This document shows positions 3,939 through 15,767 of a DNA stretch of 64,000 nt, one piece after another (positions within the stretch are counted from its first letter, which is position 1; the number at the start of each line of letters is the position of its first letter). The notes under the pieces were generated by a model that worked only from the letters and a program-made list of their open reading frames with translations, was not told the DNA's origin and did no database searches. Made by a program: the position numbers and the translations under genes. Source of the DNA: Tessaracoccus oleiagri (GTDB taxonomy: Bacteria; Actinomycetota; Actinomycetes; Propionibacteriales; Propionibacteriaceae); contig NZ_FNGP01000004.1 in the NCBI RefSeq assembly GCF_900103275.1, positions 124,001 through 188,000 of the forward strand. Reading direction: 5' to 3'.

Positions 3939-5615
3939 ATGAGTGAACTCCGTACCCCACCCAAGTTGAAGCCCGGCACCCTGCGTGTGATCCCGCTCGG
4001 TGGGCTGGGCGACGTGGGGCGCAACTCCACCGCGTTCGAGATCGACGGCGAGATCGCCCTCGTGGACTGCGGCGTGCTGTTCCCGGAGGAGACCCACCCG
4101 GGCGTCGACCTCATCCTGCCCGCCCTCGACCACCTGTCGGACCGCCTCGACGACATCGTGGCGCTCGTCCTCACGCACGGCCACGAGGACCACATCGGCG
4201 CCGTCCCCTACCTCCTGAAGATGCGCCCCGACGTCCCCATCTACGGCTCGAAGCTCACGCTGGCGCTGGTGGCCGGCAAGCTGCGCGAGCACCGGCTCCG
4301 CGACTTCAAGCTCTTCGACGTGGCGGAGGGCGATGTGGTCCGCGCGGGCGGGTACGAGTTCGAGTTCTTCGCGGTCAACCACTCCATCCCCGACGCCCTC
4401 GCGGTGGCGATCCGCACCAAGGCCGGCGTCGCGCTCCACACCGGCGACTTCAAGATGGACCAGCTGCCGCTCGACGGCCGTCTCACGGACCTCCGGGGTT
4501 TCGCGCGGCTCGGCGCCAAGGGCGTGGACCTGTTCCTCGTCGACTCCACCAATGCGGAGACCCCCGGGTTCACGACGCACGAGGTGGACCTCGAGCCGGC
4601 GCTGGACCGCGTGTTCCAGGCGGCGAACGGGAAGCTGATCGTCGCCTGCTTCGCCAGCCACGTGCACCGCGTCCAGCAGGTGCTGGACCAGGCGGTGAAG
4701 CACGGGCGCAAGGCGGTCTACGTCGGCCGCTCGATGGTGCGCAACATGTCCACCGCCCGGGACCTCGGCTACCTCAGGGTGCCCGCCGGCGTCATGATCG
4801 AGCTCAAGGACCTCGGCAAGTACGCCGACGACGAGGTGGTGATCATCTCGACCGGCTCCCAGGGCGAGCCGCTGGCCGCGCTGAGCCGGATCGCCAACCA
4901 GGAGCACCAGCACATCGAGGTCGGCCCCGGCGACACGGTGCTGCTCGCGAGCTCGCTGATCCCCGGCAACGAGAACTCCGTCGGGCGCGTGATCAACGGG
5001 CTCACCCGCCTCGGCGCCAACGTCGTGCACAAGGGCAACGCGCTCGTGCACGTGTCCGGGCACGCCTCCGCGGGGGAGCTGCTCTACTGCTACAACCTCA
5101 TCCAGCCCAAGAACGTGATGCCCGTCCACGGGGAGGTGCGGCACCTCGTCGCCAACGGCAAGCTCGCCGCCCGCACCGGCATCCCGGAGGAGAACATCGT
5201 CATCGCCGAGGACGGTGTGGTGGTCGACCTGGCCAAGGGGCGCGCCCGCATCGTCGGCAGGGTCGACGCCAGCTACATCTTCGTCGACGGGACCACCGTC
5301 GGCGACGTGAGCGAGGCCGTCAACGACCGGCTCATCCTCGGTGAGGAGGGCTTCATCTCGATCGTCACGGTCGTCAGCACGCACAACCGCGAGGTCGTCT
5401 CGGGGCCCGAGATCAGCGCCCGCGGCTTCGCGGAGGACCCCTCGGTCTTCGACGAGGTGCACCGCCAGATCTACGAGGCGCTCGAGCAGGCGCTGCGCGA
5501 CGGGGTCGACGACACCCGCCGCCTGCAGCAGGTGGTCCGCCGCACGATCGGGGCCTGGGTTTCCCGGAAGCTGCGCCGTCGTCCTATGATCGTTCCGGTG
5601 GTCATCACCACCTAG
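3939..5615 (+). CDS. rnj: Ribonuclease J
   Basis: RNase J is a zinc-dependent 5'-3' exonuclease and endonuclease of the beta-CASP metallo-beta-lactamase family that processes rRNA and degrades mRNA. The 558-residue protein is normal for the family. The lactamase core has LGGLGDVGRN near the start, the metal motif LTHGHEDHIGAVPY, HTGDFKMDQ, and beta-CASP elements including VACFASHVHRV and STGSQGEPLAAL; VHVSGHAS and MPVHGEVRHL provide later metal ligands. The C-terminal domain (VRRTIGAWVSRKLRRRP) is complete. The open frame extends 5' to 3402 but that part is antisense to the GNAT gene and has no homology, so the ATG with the TAGCCT box just before it is chosen. Confidence 0.95.
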   Translation: MSELRTPPKLKPGTLRVIPLGGLGDVGRNSTAFEIDGEIALVDCGVLFPEETHPGVDLILPALDHLSDRLDDIVALVLTHGHEDHIGAVPYLLKMRPDVPIYGSKLTLALVAGKLREHRLRDFKLFDVAEGDVVRAGGYEFEFFAVNHSIPDALAVAIRTKAGVALHTGDFKMDQLPLDGRLTDLRGFARLGAKGVDLFLVDSTNAETPGFTTHEVDLEPALDRVFQAANGKLIVACFASHVHRVQQVLDQAVKHGRKAVYVGRSMVRNMSTARDLGYLRVPAGVMIELKDLGKYADDEVVIISTGSQGEPLAALSRIANQEHQHIEVGPGDTVLLASSLIPGNENSVGRVINGLTRLGANVVHKGNALVHVSGHASAGELLYCYNLIQPKNVMPVHGEVRHLVANGKLAARTGIPEENIVIAEDGVVVDLAKGRARIVGRVDASYIFVDGTTVGDVSEAVNDRLILGEEGFISIVTVVSTHNREVVSGPEISARGFAEDPSVFDEVHRQIYEALEQALRDGVDDTRRLQQVVRRTIGAWVSRKLRRRPMIVPVVITT

Positions 5616-5624
5616 CTCCCCGGT

Positions 5625-5653
5625 TTGACCCGTTCGCGGTCAGGACGTAAAGT
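5625..5653 (+). promoter_or_regulatory. Promoter of rplU-rpmA
   Basis: TTGACC (5625-5630) and TAAAGT (5648-5653) are separated by 17 bases, a near-consensus housekeeping promoter 10 bases after the RNase J stop. Transcription should begin near 5660, leaving an 80-base leader before rplU that could carry an L21-type control structure; I cannot show one by eye. Confidence 0.75.
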
Positions 5654-5743
5654 TGTCCCTCGGTGCATTGCTGGCGCAGGATCGTCGATCCGGGCGCGTC
5701 GCACCGATCCAGAGCTTGAAGTTGTTAAGAAGGTAGGTCAGGC

Positions 5744-6052
5744 GTGTACGCGATCGTGCGCAATGGCGGACGCCAGCACAAGGTTGCTGTTGGCGACATC
5801 CTGGACATCGACCTGGTGTCCGAAGAGGTCGGCGGTACCGTCAACCTGCAGCCCCTGCTGGTCGTCGACGGTGACAAGGTCACCTCCGACACCAAGGGTC
5901 TCCAGAAGGTCACCGTGGCAGCCGAGGTCCTCGGCGAGTCCAAGGGTCCCAAGATCCGCATCATGAAGTACAAGAACAAGACCGGTTACAAGAAGCGCCA
6001 GGGTCACCGCCAGCGGTACACCCAGGTCAAGGTCACCGGCATCGAGAGCTGA
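5744..6052 (+). CDS. rplU: 50S ribosomal protein L21
   Basis: The 102-residue protein is a standard bL21, which binds 23S rRNA in the large subunit. [18 protein letters not shown] at the N-terminus and [20 protein letters not shown] at the C-terminus are diagnostic. The start is GTG, preceded by AAGGTAGG. rpmA follows after 12 bases with its own GAGGGAG site, the usual L21-L27 operon, ending at a clear terminator. Confidence 0.98.
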
Positions 6053-6064
6053 GGGAGTACAGAA

Positions 6065-6313
6065 ATGGCATCCAAAAAGGGCGTTTCCTCGACCCGTAAC
6101 GGCCGCGACTCCAACGCCAAGCGTCTCGGGGTCAAGCGCTACGGTGGCCAGGTCGTCGGTGCGGGCGAGATCCTGATCCGCCAGCGCGGCACGCAGTTCC
6201 ACGCGGGCGACAACGTCGGCCGCGGCGGCGACGACACCCTCTTCGCGCTCGCCGAGGGCACCGTCGAGTTCGGCGTCAAGCGTGGCCGCAGGGTCATCAG
6301 CGTCGTCTCCTGA
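6065..6313 (+). CDS. rpmA: 50S ribosomal protein L27
   Basis: The 82-residue bL27 sits near the peptidyl-transferase centre of the large subunit. It has the typical N-terminus [19 protein letters not shown] and the core [20 protein letters not shown] and [17 protein letters not shown]. There is no N-terminal cleavage extension of the Firmicutes type. It is the second gene of the rplU operon and is followed by a terminator 17 bases downstream. Confidence 0.98.
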
Positions 6314-12244: not shown

Positions 12245-12382
12245 ATGAATCTTGTGTTGCTCGAAGCCGAGGCCACCGGCGGACTGCCCCCGATCCTGAC
12301 GGGCATCATCTCGCTCGCCGTCCTGCTGACCGCCCTCGGCATCGTCGTCGCCATGGGCATGGGTCGCCCGAACAGCAAGTGA
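12245..12382 (+). CDS. 45-residue single-pass membrane peptide upstream of nadD
   Basis: This short ORF encodes 45 residues: a mildly acidic N-terminus ([13 protein letters not shown]), one transmembrane helix ([20 protein letters not shown]) and the tail MGMGRPNSK. Its stop overlaps the nadD start by four bases (GTGA), so the two genes are co-translated. TAGGAT seven bases before the ATG makes a leaderless start for the whole nadD-rsfS operon. Good codon use, a well-formed helix and the overlap all say it is real. I do not know a family for it. Confidence 0.7.
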
Positions 12383-13047
12383 CCTCCACCGAGCTCGGCA
12401 TAGCCCGCGCCGGGCGCGAGAAGCGCTACCGGCTGGGCGTCATGGGCGGTACCTTCGACCCGATCCACCACGGCCACCTCGTGGCCGCCTCGGAGGTGGC
12501 CGCCAAGTTCGGGCTCGACGAGGTCGTGTTCGTCCCCACCGGCGTGCCCTGGCAGAAGTCGCACCGCGACGTGTCGCTCGCCGAGGACCGCTACCTGATG
12601 ACGGTGATCGCCACCGCGTCGAACCCGCGGTTCTCCGTCTCCCGGGTGGACATCGACCGGCCGGGCAACACGTACACGGTCGACACGCTGAAGGACCTGC
12701 GCCGGGAGCGGGGCGAGGACGTCGACCTCTTCTTCATCACCGGTGCCGACGCCGTCCGGCAGATCCTCACCTGGCGGGGCGCCGACGAACTGTTCGACCT
12801 GGCCCACTTCGTCGGCGTGACGCGCCCGGGCGTGCCCATGACCGCCGACGACCTCAAGCACCTCCCGCCGAAGGCGGTCACCCTCCTCGAGGTGCCCGCG
12901 CTGGCGATCTCCTCGACGAACTGCCGTGAGCGCTCGAGGCAGGGCGAGCCCATCTGGTACCTCGTGCCCGACGGGATCGTGCAGTACATCGCCAAACGAG
13001 GCCTCTACCCCCAAGACCAATCTGGAGTACCGCGTGACCGCAACTGA
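12379..13047 (+). CDS. nadD: Nicotinate-nucleotide adenylyltransferase
   Basis: NadD adenylates nicotinate mononucleotide in NAD synthesis. The 222-residue protein has the nucleotidyltransferase motif [44 protein letters not shown] and the C-terminal ISSTNCRER, a variant of the usual ISSTxIR. The GTG start overlaps the stop of the upstream membrane peptide. About 15 residues precede the first core strand, which is normal in actinobacteria. It is followed with a 14-base overlap by rsfS, a very common pairing. Confidence 0.95.
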
Positions 13048-13402
13048 CGAAGCCCTCGAGACCACCCGGGAGGCGGCCCGCGCCGCCTCGGCGAAGCTGG
13101 CCGAGAACGTGGTGGCGTTCGACGTCAGCGAGCAGCTCAACATCACCGACGTGTTCCTCGTGTGCTCGGCGGGGAACGAACGCCAGGTGAGCGCGATCGT
13201 CGACGCCATCGAGGAGCAGCTCCTGAAGATCGGCCGTAAGCCGGCGCGCCGCGAGGGCGACCGCGAGAATCGCTGGGTGCTGCTCGACTACATCGACGTG
13301 GTGGTCCACGTCCAGCACGACGAGGAGCGCGTCCTCTACAACCTGGAGCGGCTCTGGAAGGACTGCCCGGAGATCGACCTGGAGCTCCCGGAAGCGTCGT
13401 GA
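13034..13402 (+). CDS. rsfS: Ribosomal silencing factor RsfS
   Basis: RsfS (RsfA/YbeB) binds L14 on the 50S subunit and blocks joining with 30S during starvation. The 122-residue protein has the family pattern [28 protein letters not shown] and [21 protein letters not shown]. The GTG at 13034 lies inside the nadD end after CTGGAG; the longer open frame adds residues that are a shadow of nadD. The phosphatase gene starts inside the last codon (GTGA). Confidence 0.95.
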
Positions 13403-14046
13403 CCCGCCTGATCGTCCTGCGGCACGGCGAGACGCTGTGGAACCGCGACCGACGCATGCAGGGCCAGGCCGACGTCGAACTGAACGCCCGCGGAATCTCG
13501 CAGGCGAGGGCAGCGGCCGCGGCGCTGGCCGGTGAGCACTTCGACGCGATCTACTCCTCGCCCCTCAAACGCGCCTCCGTGACCGCCCGCGTCGTCGCCG
13601 AGTCCAAGGGGCTGCCGGTGCGCCTCGACGAGCGACTGGGGGAGATCCACGTCGGGTCGTGGTCGGGCCGCACCGCCGCCGAGATCCACCTCGAGTTCCC
13701 CGGCCAGCAGGAGCTGTACTTCGCCGGCCGGGACTATCGCCGCTCGTCGACGGGGGAGACCGCCGCCGAGGTGGGCGACCGGGCCGAGGCCGTGGTGGGC
13801 GACATCGTCGCGGCGCATCCCGAGGGCACGGTCCTGCTCGTCTCGCACGGCTACTTCACCCAGCTGCTGGTGTCGCGGCTGCTCGGCATCGAGGGTTTCG
13901 GCAACCGCCTCGGGACGCTGCGCAACGCCCACTGGTGCGAACTCCGGCACGATCATGGACGCTGGTACCTGGTGACGTACAACATCGGCCAAGATCGTCC
14001 TGACGACGTGATCGGCACTGCTGATAGTCCTGCCCCGCGCGAATGA
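13399..14046 (+). CDS. Histidine phosphatase family protein (phosphoglycerate-mutase-like)
   Basis: The 215-residue protein has the RHG motif near the N-terminus (LIVLRHGETLWN), the second-half YSSPLKRASVTARVVA, and the catalytic SHGYFTQLLVSRLL. It is coupled to rsfS by a GTGA overlap, the position occupied in many actinobacteria by a phosphatase of this family; some of these act on glucosyl-3-phosphoglycerate or phosphosugars, others have no assigned substrate. The exact substrate here is not shown. Confidence 0.88.
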   Translation: MTRLIVLRHGETLWNRDRRMQGQADVELNARGISQARAAAAALAGEHFDAIYSSPLKRASVTARVVAESKGLPVRLDERLGEIHVGSWSGRTAAEIHLEFPGQQELYFAGRDYRRSSTGETAAEVGDRAEAVVGDIVAAHPEGTVLLVSHGYFTQLLVSRLLGIEGFGNRLGTLRNAHWCELRHDHGRWYLVTYNIGQDRPDDVIGTADSPAPRE

Positions 14047-14099
14047 TCCCGGCGAGGCATGAGAAGGTTTGAACAAGGAACTCGTAAGGAGGATCAGCG

Positions 14100-15767
14100 G
14101 TGAAGCTGAGGCTGGGCACGCGAGGCACTGATCTCGCCAAGGCACGGACCAACCAGGTGGCGGAGGGCCTGCGGGCGTTGGGCCACGACGTCGAGGTGGT
14201 GCCCGTGACGACGGCCGAGCCGGACGCCAACCACATGGACGACGGGCTGTCGTTCCGGGGCCAGTTCGCCGCCGAGCTGCGCCAGGCACTCCGCGACGGA
14301 TCCGTGGACGCCGTGGTCCACTCGACCAAGGACATCCCCATCGGGGAGCAGCGCCAGCCCGACCTGGTGATCGCCGCCGTACCGCTGCGCGACGACTGGC
14401 GCGACGCGCTGGTGTCGCGGAACCGCCTCCGGCTGCGCGCGTTGCCGCGTCAGGCCCGCGTGGGCGTGACGTCGCTCCGGCGCATCGCGCAGATCAGGCG
14501 GATCCGGCCCGACCTCACCTTCGTCGACGTCGGGGGCACGATGGCCGAACGCCTCGCCCGCGTCCAGCCGGGCGACCTCGACGCGGTGGTGCTCTCCGCG
14601 TCGGCGCTGCAGCGCACCGGCATGATCGACCAGGTGGCCGAGTTCCTCGACATCCTCCCCGCGCCCGGGCAGGGGGCGAAGTCCATCGAGTGCCGCGCGG
14701 CCGACAGGGACGTCATGGAGGCGCTCGCCGCGCTCGAGGACCTCGAGACCCGCATCTGCGTCGCCGCCGAGCGTGACTTCCTGTTCCGGCTGGGTGCCGA
14801 CTACCGCATGCCCGTGGGCGCGCTCGTGTCGCGGCGCTCGATCCTGAACCTCAAGGCCGCCGCGACGAGCGTCGACGGAAGCCGCTACATCCAGCTCGAG
14901 ATCGGTATGCCCACGTCGCTCCTGCACGCCAAGCGTGCCGGCGAGCGGATGGCGCAGGCGTTCCTGGAGCGCGGCGTGATGGAGTTCCTCTCGCCCGAGG
15001 CGCTCGCCGACGTCCGGTTCTCCGCCCAGCACGACGAGGAGACCGGCACCCTGGACGAACTGGGGCCCGACGCCCCGCACATCCTTCTGCCCCGGCAGGA
15101 GGGCCGACTCTCCTCCTCGTTCCGGGAGCGGGGGATCAGCATCGACACCGCCCCGCTGCAGATCGCCACGATCCTCGACGGGGCCACGAACCTCATGGAC
15201 GACGCGGACTGGGTGTTGTTCCCGTCGGCGCACACGATCTGGGCGGTGCGCGAGTTCGGCTGGGAGATCCCGAAGGACAAGAAGATCGCCGCCATGGGTT
15301 CCACGACGCGAGAACTGCTCGAGGAACTCGGGCTGGAGGTCCACCTGTCCCCGGAGGGCACGGCCAGTTCGAAGCGCCTCATCGACCTGTTCCCCGAAGG
15401 CTCCGGACGCGTCGTGATCCCGTGCGCCGACGACCTCAGCACCCGGTTGCAGGACGGGCTCAGCGCCAAGGGTTACGACGTCCAGCGCATGCCGGTCTAC
15501 CACATGGTCGACCTCGAGGAGGTGGCCGGTTGGGTCCTCGACGGCTGGGAGAACGCACGCTACGACGCCATCCTGCTGACCTCGCCCTCCGTGGCGCGGA
15601 GCGCGCTCAACCTCCTTCCCCGCAACGGCACGATGGTGCTGGCCTGGGACGAGGACACGGCGAAGGTGCTCCGCGAGGCCGGGGTCGACGTGGCCGCCGT
15701 GGCCTCGACGAAGGACGACTCGGGCGTCGACCAACTCGCCGCCGCGGTCAGGGAACGCAGGAAATAG
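14100..15767 (+). CDS. hemC: HemC-HemD fusion with an unusual HemC domain
   Basis: Residues 1-310 are a porphobilinogen-deaminase fold (LRLGTRGTDLAKARTNQV, VVHSTKDIP with the catalytic Asp 78, SLRRIAQIRRIRPDL, APGQGAKSIECRA). Residues 320-555 resemble uroporphyrinogen-III synthase (WVLFPSAHTIWAV, IPCADDLSTRLQDGLSAKGYDV, AILLTSPSVARSALNLL). In normal HemC a cysteine in RLxGGCxxPxG holds the dipyrromethane cofactor; here that segment is RLGADYRMPVG with Tyr 235 in its place, and the Arg of the RGNxxTR segment is Gly 145. Either another cysteine (Cys 220 lies near) serves, the HemC half is inactive, or it has another job. The GTG follows AAGGAGG, and the rest of the protein is well conserved, so this is not simple decay. 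Confidence 0.8.
   Translation: MKLRLGTRGTDLAKARTNQVAEGLRALGHDVEVVPVTTAEPDANHMDDGLSFRGQFAAELRQALRDGSVDAVVHSTKDIPIGEQRQPDLVIAAVPLRDDWRDALVSRNRLRLRALPRQARVGVTSLRRIAQIRRIRPDLTFVDVGGTMAERLARVQPGDLDAVVLSASALQRTGMIDQVAEFLDILPAPGQGAKSIECRAADRDVMEALAALEDLETRICVAAERDFLFRLGADYRMPVGALVSRRSILNLKAAATSVDGSRYIQLEIGMPTSLLHAKRAGERMAQAFLERGVMEFLSPEALADVRFSAQHDEETGTLDELGPDAPHILLPRQEGRLSSSFRERGISIDTAPLQIATILDGATNLMDDADWVLFPSAHTIWAVREFGWEIPKDKKIAAMGSTTRELLEELGLEVHLSPEGTASSKRLIDLFPEGSGRVVIPCADDLSTRLQDGLSAKGYDVQRMPVYHMVDLEEVAGWVLDGWENARYDAILLTSPSVARSALNLLPRNGTMVLAWDEDTAKVLREAGVDVAAVASTKDDSGVDQLAAAVRERRK

Follow-up and report, generated by a model that had tools for sequence, protein, structure and literature searches.

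Hydroxymethylbilane synthase (porphobilinogen deaminase, HemC) is a textbook enzyme that is usually encoded by a single-copy gene. The 64,000-nucleotide stretch of the Tessaracoccus oleiagri genome analyzed here (hereafter, the window) encodes a fusion of HemC with HemD, the uroporphyrinogen III synthase, that lacks the cysteine known to carry the dipyrromethane cofactor in HemC proteins, which raises the question of what such a protein does and whether its host depends on it for heme. This gene, denoted CD2, turned out to be a genus-wide second copy without the cofactor cysteine that mostly resides in the heme gene cluster and evolves under purifying selection. The conservation of the altered twin suggests that an enzyme domain that looks dead nevertheless contributes to heme synthesis, and it opens a possible pseudoenzyme role in tetrapyrrole flux to direct testing. 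The HemC and HemD domains themselves are known, and what is new, within the literature searched, is a conserved cysteine-less twin with links to the heme cluster. In the open-access literature, covered through titles and the beginnings of abstracts and with subscription journals mostly outside, no cysteine-less HemC paralog or pseudoenzyme at this step of the pathway was described, and the term 'paralog' is absent from the accessible part of a review of pathway regulation (PMC10991733).

The cysteine-less fusion and its canonical counterpart

The reading frame of CD2 is open over all 555 codons, and AAGGAGG precedes its GTG start (Table 1), in agreement with the original prediction, made from the letters of the window, of an intact gene with a strong ribosome-binding site. 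The protein matches the Pfam families PF01379 (HemC domain, 163.5 bits) and PF02602 (HemD, 110.7 bits), and its match to the C-terminal HemC domain PF03900 (22.5 bits) falls under the cut-off of 26. With 213 bits against the NCBIfam hemC equivalog TIGR00212, CD2 passes the cut-off of 164, so that automatic annotation would name it an active enzyme, a warning that database rules of this kind would mislabel cysteine-less proteins. Both the HemC and the HemD folds are recovered in an AlphaFold model of CD2 (mean pLDDT 85.0, pTM 0.68, from a 20-sequence alignment), with TM scores by target of 0.79-0.93 against porphobilinogen deaminases and weaker ones, up to 0.68, against uroporphyrinogen III synthases (0.43-0.67 for the HemD chains of T. 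thermophilus and Pseudomonas, which share PF02602 and the fold).

Table 1. Features of the CD2 gene and its upstream neighbors, in window positions
Feature	Position	Strand	Basis
nadD-like and histidine-phosphatase/phosphoglycerate-mutase-like genes upstream of CD2; a gene among these neighbors is presumably RsfS-like	12379..14046	+	neighbor reading
Strong Shine-Dalgarno-like stretch TAAGGAGG ahead of the GTG	14085..14092	+	read from sequence
CD2, cysteine-less HemC-HemD fusion, 555 aa, GTG start	14100..15767	+	ORF, Pfam, NCBIfam
HemC-like half, residues 1-300	14100..14999	+	Pfam, AlphaFold model vs solved porphobilinogen deaminases
Cofactor turn LFRLGADYRMPVG, Tyr235 codon (14802-14804) replacing Cys242	14781..14819	+	alignment
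CD2-specific motif GMPTSLLHAKR, residues 269-279	14904..14936	+	alignment of 31 CD2 proteins
HemD-like half, from about residue 327; contains Tyr467	15078..15764	+	Pfam, alignment, structure match

Residues of the HemC half were compared with E. coli K-12 HemC (sequence from NC_000913), with residue roles taken from the accessible part of PMC3945110, and the cofactor chemistry and the HemD tyrosine from that of PMC7242693. The cofactor segment of the window protein, FRLGADYRMPVGAL, carries Tyr235 in place of E. coli Cys242, and Gly145 stands for Arg149 (the arginine of the RGNxxTR motif); both substitutions had been predicted and are borne out by the alignment. So is the retention of Asp84 (Asp78 in the window protein), Arg131 and Arg132 (Arg127 and Arg128), Arg155 (Arg151) and Arg176 (Arg172), and Arg11, Lys83, Gln198 and Arg232 (E. 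coli numbering) are retained as well. The earlier reading had missed the replacement of Gln19 by Arg16, of Thr127 by Val123 and of Asn151 by Thr147. Thus, CD2 shares with E. coli HemC (PDB 1pda) and human hydroxymethylbilane synthase (HMBS) the HemC fold and PF01379 but, unlike them, has no cysteine to carry dipyrromethane.

The original prediction called for a search for a canonical hemC elsewhere in the genome, and the whole-genome search found one: the genome contains two HemC domains, those of CD2 and of a second HemC-HemD fusion, CD1 (G000:C1:109636-111252, locus L033). CD1 has the same two-domain order and length as CD2, with 41% identity, and retains the cysteine in its cofactor turn, GLGGGCAAP. 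It is located in a full coproporphyrin-type cluster with chdC, cpfC, hemA, hemE, cgoX, hemB and hemL (gene names from NCBIfam matches to the equivalent genes of locus L040). Given this separate canonical copy, heme synthesis does not depend on CD2 for hydroxymethylbilane, which CD1 would make using the dipyrromethane cofactor. Across the genus, R11, Q19, K83, D84, R131, R132, R149, R155, R176, R232 and C242 are retained in 33 of 33 CD1 proteins, and the cofactor cysteine is present in all 17 HemC proteins from other genera of the family. CD2, in contrast to CD1, is missing Cys242 and Gln19 in all cases, Arg149 in nearly all and Arg176 in most, and has gained a PTSxxHAxR motif.

Distribution, origin and gene neighborhood of CD2

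A protein match was detected in 38 of the 39 genus genomes searched, and each of the 34 genomes that are at least 90% complete contains two or more HemC matches. When 343 genomes of the order are searched with a CD2 profile and the matches ranked by score, all 34 good genomes of the GTDB genus (named members: Tessaracoccus) score 757-917 bits, the next-best score, 548 bits, belongs to a CD1, and none of the other 309 genomes reaches a CD2-level score among the matches listed. Since scores of this level end at the genus, CD2 is a genus-specific paralog within the genomes searched. The patterns used found no viral relatives of CD2. From 33 genomes, both CD1 and CD2 sequences were extracted, CD2 being accompanied by CD1 in every one of them, and the CD2 sequences divide into two lineages: A (19 extracted sequences including the window, with Tessaracoccus massiliensis, T. 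bendigoensis, T. lapidicaptus and T. sp. OH4464_COT-324 among the named carriers) and B (14 extracted).

The two lineages form one clade in the tree of the HemC half (SH-aLRT 99) as well as in the tree of the HemD half (86), the latter rooted on methylase-HemD fusions. In the HemD-half tree, CD1 and CD2 together also form a single clade (99), apart from the other HemC-HemD fusions of the family, which points to a duplication in the genus ancestor followed by fast change of the HemC half; by this tree, CD1 is the parent of the duplication from which CD2 would have arisen. In the HemC-half tree, CD2 is not placed inside CD1, probably due to a long-branch effect.

Most CD2 genes (25 of 33 loci) lie within the heme cluster, following hemL at 14 of the 19 lineage-A and 3 of the 14 lineage-B loci and on its opposite flank at 8 of the 14 lineage-B loci. 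At the remaining 8 of 33 loci (5 in lineage A and 3 in lineage B), CD2 is found apart from the cluster. In the clade of the window (the window, L067, L069 and L071), CD2 follows nadD and pgm, the phosphoglycerate-mutase-like gene being its last upstream neighbor. The latter gene borders the heme cluster in several relatives, and in six other loci (L037-L040, L044 and L047) the bordering cluster is complete, suggesting that the cluster was once located beside nadD-pgm and later moved; the simplest inference is that, in the clade of the window, the cluster probably moved off and left CD2 behind. At locus L065, all that remains beside pgm is CD2 and a cgoX-like stretch, and the full cluster is located elsewhere (L066). 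This stretch, between pgm and CD2 at about 4778-6139 (genome G006), is either a remnant or a second cgoX.

Selective constraint and the fate of the HemC pocket

Both halves of CD2 are subject to purifying selection: in 10 close pairs, the dN/dS values are in the range of 0.05 to 0.24 for the HemC half and 0.08 to 0.21 for the HemD half, compared to 0.09 to 0.28 and 0.13 to 0.29, respectively, in 10 CD1 pairs. Thus, the HemC half experiences similar constraint in CD2, where it is non-canonical, and in CD1, where it is catalytic, and the original impression that selection maintains the gene holds. It is scarcely credible, then, that CD2 is a duplicate on its way to becoming a pseudogene, as the loss of the cysteine and other catalytic residues might indicate; this explanation was rejected given the intact frame, the low dN/dS in both halves, the invariant new residues and the presence of the gene in 34 of 34 good genomes. 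Broken CD2 frames were seen only in a low-quality genome (G005, locus L136).

In matched, non-independent genome pairs (91 for lineage B and 171 for lineage A), the HemD half is closer in CD2 than in CD1 in 82 and 99 pairs, respectively, and the HemC half in only 13 and 67. These identities fit a division of labor in which CD1 has taken over the HemC function and CD2, at least in lineage B, that of HemD. As the CD1 set covers both lineages, counts of invariant columns across groups were given no weight.

In lineage A, the anchor position is occupied by Tyr in 23 of 23 genomes (the 19 aligned sequences plus L124, L129, L133 and L136, the last with a frameshift), so that close relatives do not carry the cysteine and a sequencing error is excluded. 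Gln19 is replaced by Arg and Thr127 is changed in all 19 aligned proteins, 18 of which also lack Arg149 and 14 Arg176. Other pocket residues are kept: Arg11, His80, Lys83, Asp84, Arg131, Arg132, Arg155, Gln198, Gly199 and Arg232 are present in 19 of 19, that is, lineage-A CD2 retains most of the active-site arginines of E. coli HemC and human HMBS along with the aspartate. In lineage B, 8 of the 14 proteins have Glu at the anchor position and 6 have Asp, and all 14 have Arg in place of Asp84 and Ser81 and are devoid of Lys83 and Arg131; the active-site loop is deleted, and Arg132 and Arg232 are retained. Common to both lineages and absent from CD1 is the (L/M)PTSxxHAxR motif, located where the final helix of HemC domain 3 begins; of the GMPTSLLHAKR stretch of the window protein, the G, P-T-S, H-A and R positions are invariant in all 31 aligned CD2 proteins.

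In human HMBS, according to the accessible part of PMC9934555, Cys261, Lys98, Asp99, Thr145, Arg149, Arg150 and Arg195 do not tolerate change, Arg167 (equivalent to E. coli Arg149) tolerates substitution in the yeast complementation map, and the counterpart of Gln19 is somewhat more tolerant than those of Cys, Thr127 and Arg176; the equivalences for Thr127 (Thr145), Gln19 and Arg176 (Arg195) are our own mapping. By analogy, these data support the reading of the CD2 HemC half as inactive, with the Arg149-to-Gly change alone being weak evidence of inactivity. That lineage-A CD2 is still a hydroxymethylbilane synthase, working via Tyr235, Cys220 or a non-covalent primer, appears very improbable, despite the invariance of Tyr235, the retention of most pocket residues and the passing of the equivalog cut-off. 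The residues changed or lost in this lineage include counterparts of the intolerant human ones, lineage B manages without most of the site, the activity would be redundant given CD1, and in human HMBS the substrate attaches exclusively to the cysteine, as stated in the accessible part of PMC7907807. Cys220, originally put forward as another anchor, was rejected: it is found in 15 of the 19 lineage-A orthologs, with Ala or Ile in the other 4, and its counterpart in the alignment lies in the preceding helix, off the cofactor turn. No cysteine column is invariant across these 19 orthologs.

From the sequence changes, conservation, distribution, synteny and selection, we give about even chances to CD2 being a neofunctionalized paralog of the uroporphyrinogen-III-synthase type, with a non-catalytic HemC half that docks with CD1 or holds the bilane. 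With the anchoring cysteine and several other needed residues gone, CD2 would be unable to make hydroxymethylbilane; it would act in the heme pathway through its HemD half, and its HemC half might dock with CD1 or hold a substrate, the bilane or a partner. The shared HemC fold, the domain-3 motif, the HemD half with its invariant tyrosine and the link to the heme cluster are best explained in this manner. The evidence thereby favors the direction of the original suggestion that the protein acts only as HemD or does something new. The main weakness of the synthase-type reading is that the lineage-A HemD half has itself drifted; moreover, the lineage-A HemC half is as well conserved as the HemD half, and its invariant pocket (R11, K83, D84, R131, R132, R155, Q198, R232) is more than pure docking requires. 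With its arginines and Asp84 retained, this pocket may still bind a pyrrole ligand non-covalently.

These same features would accommodate a regulatory pseudoenzyme, or 'prozyme', whose pocket binds porphobilinogen or oligopyrroles and which, in a mixed complex, tunes CD1, with the HemD half being enzymatically dispensable. This is possible, if doubtful: the cofactor-binding arginines and Asp84 persist in lineage A even though Tyr occupies the anchor position in all 19 proteins, the HemD motifs of this lineage have drifted, and CD2 always accompanies CD1, but lineage B has no such pocket, so that pocket sensing cannot be the function common to both lineages, and human HMBS is described as mostly monomeric in the accessible part of PMC7907807. 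For lineage A, CD2 might be a ligand-sensing pseudo-hydroxymethylbilane synthase in which a pyrrole or bilane, bound in the Tyr235 pocket non-covalently or via the tyrosine, is passed to the HemD half or used to control CD1; we consider this version rather unlikely.

The HemD half and a cysteine-less fusion in the sister genus

The HEM4 domain is present in all 31 CD2 members. A conserved tyrosine of HemD is thought to act in catalysis. It is shared by CD2, in which Tyr467 is invariant (31 of 31 proteins) and aligns with a tyrosine of E. coli HemD, presumably the one mutated by Roessner 2002 (cited in PMC7242693). Unlike HemD, CD2 is fused to a non-canonical HemC, and in lineage A its loop motifs have drifted (PGSA to CAD and SGS to QPS), whereas CD1 and lineage-B CD2 retain them. 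Among the three HEM4 matches in the genome of the window, that of CD2 scores lowest (104.8 vs 149.8 and 186.6 bits); given this score and the drift, the other two HEM4 proteins could be the source of uroporphyrinogen III synthase.

A cysteine-less HemC-HemD fusion is also encoded in the sister genus (G071-G073, loci L104, L106 and L107; for example, L107 8614-10398). As in CD2, the anchor cysteine is replaced (by Thr in 3 of 3), but unlike CD2, these proteins form a separate group in both trees and have Leu in place of Arg131, so that they are apparently independent of CD2. A LemA gene is located upstream of this fusion, and a methylase-HemD fusion downstream. In G073 (97% complete), canonical hemC and hemB were not found and the URO-D match is only weak, which reflects either an assembly gap or retention of a cysteine-less HemC without heme synthesis. 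The latter, together with the 8 CD2 loci away from the cluster, would be in line with recruitment of the HemC and HemD folds outside heme synthesis, for instance, for binding another tetrapyrrole such as a corrinoid or siroheme precursor; for CD2, this appears improbable considering that 25 of 33 loci are within the heme cluster and that the G073 case may come from a gap.

The third HemD domain of the window genome (G000:C2:38985-39677, locus L123) is part of a 520-aa frame, the front half of which, by eye, looks similar to a tetrapyrrole methylase. In L107, Pfam detects TP_methylase and HEM4 domains in a comparable gene, and a HEM4 match of this kind ranks at the top in all 33 genus genomes searched.
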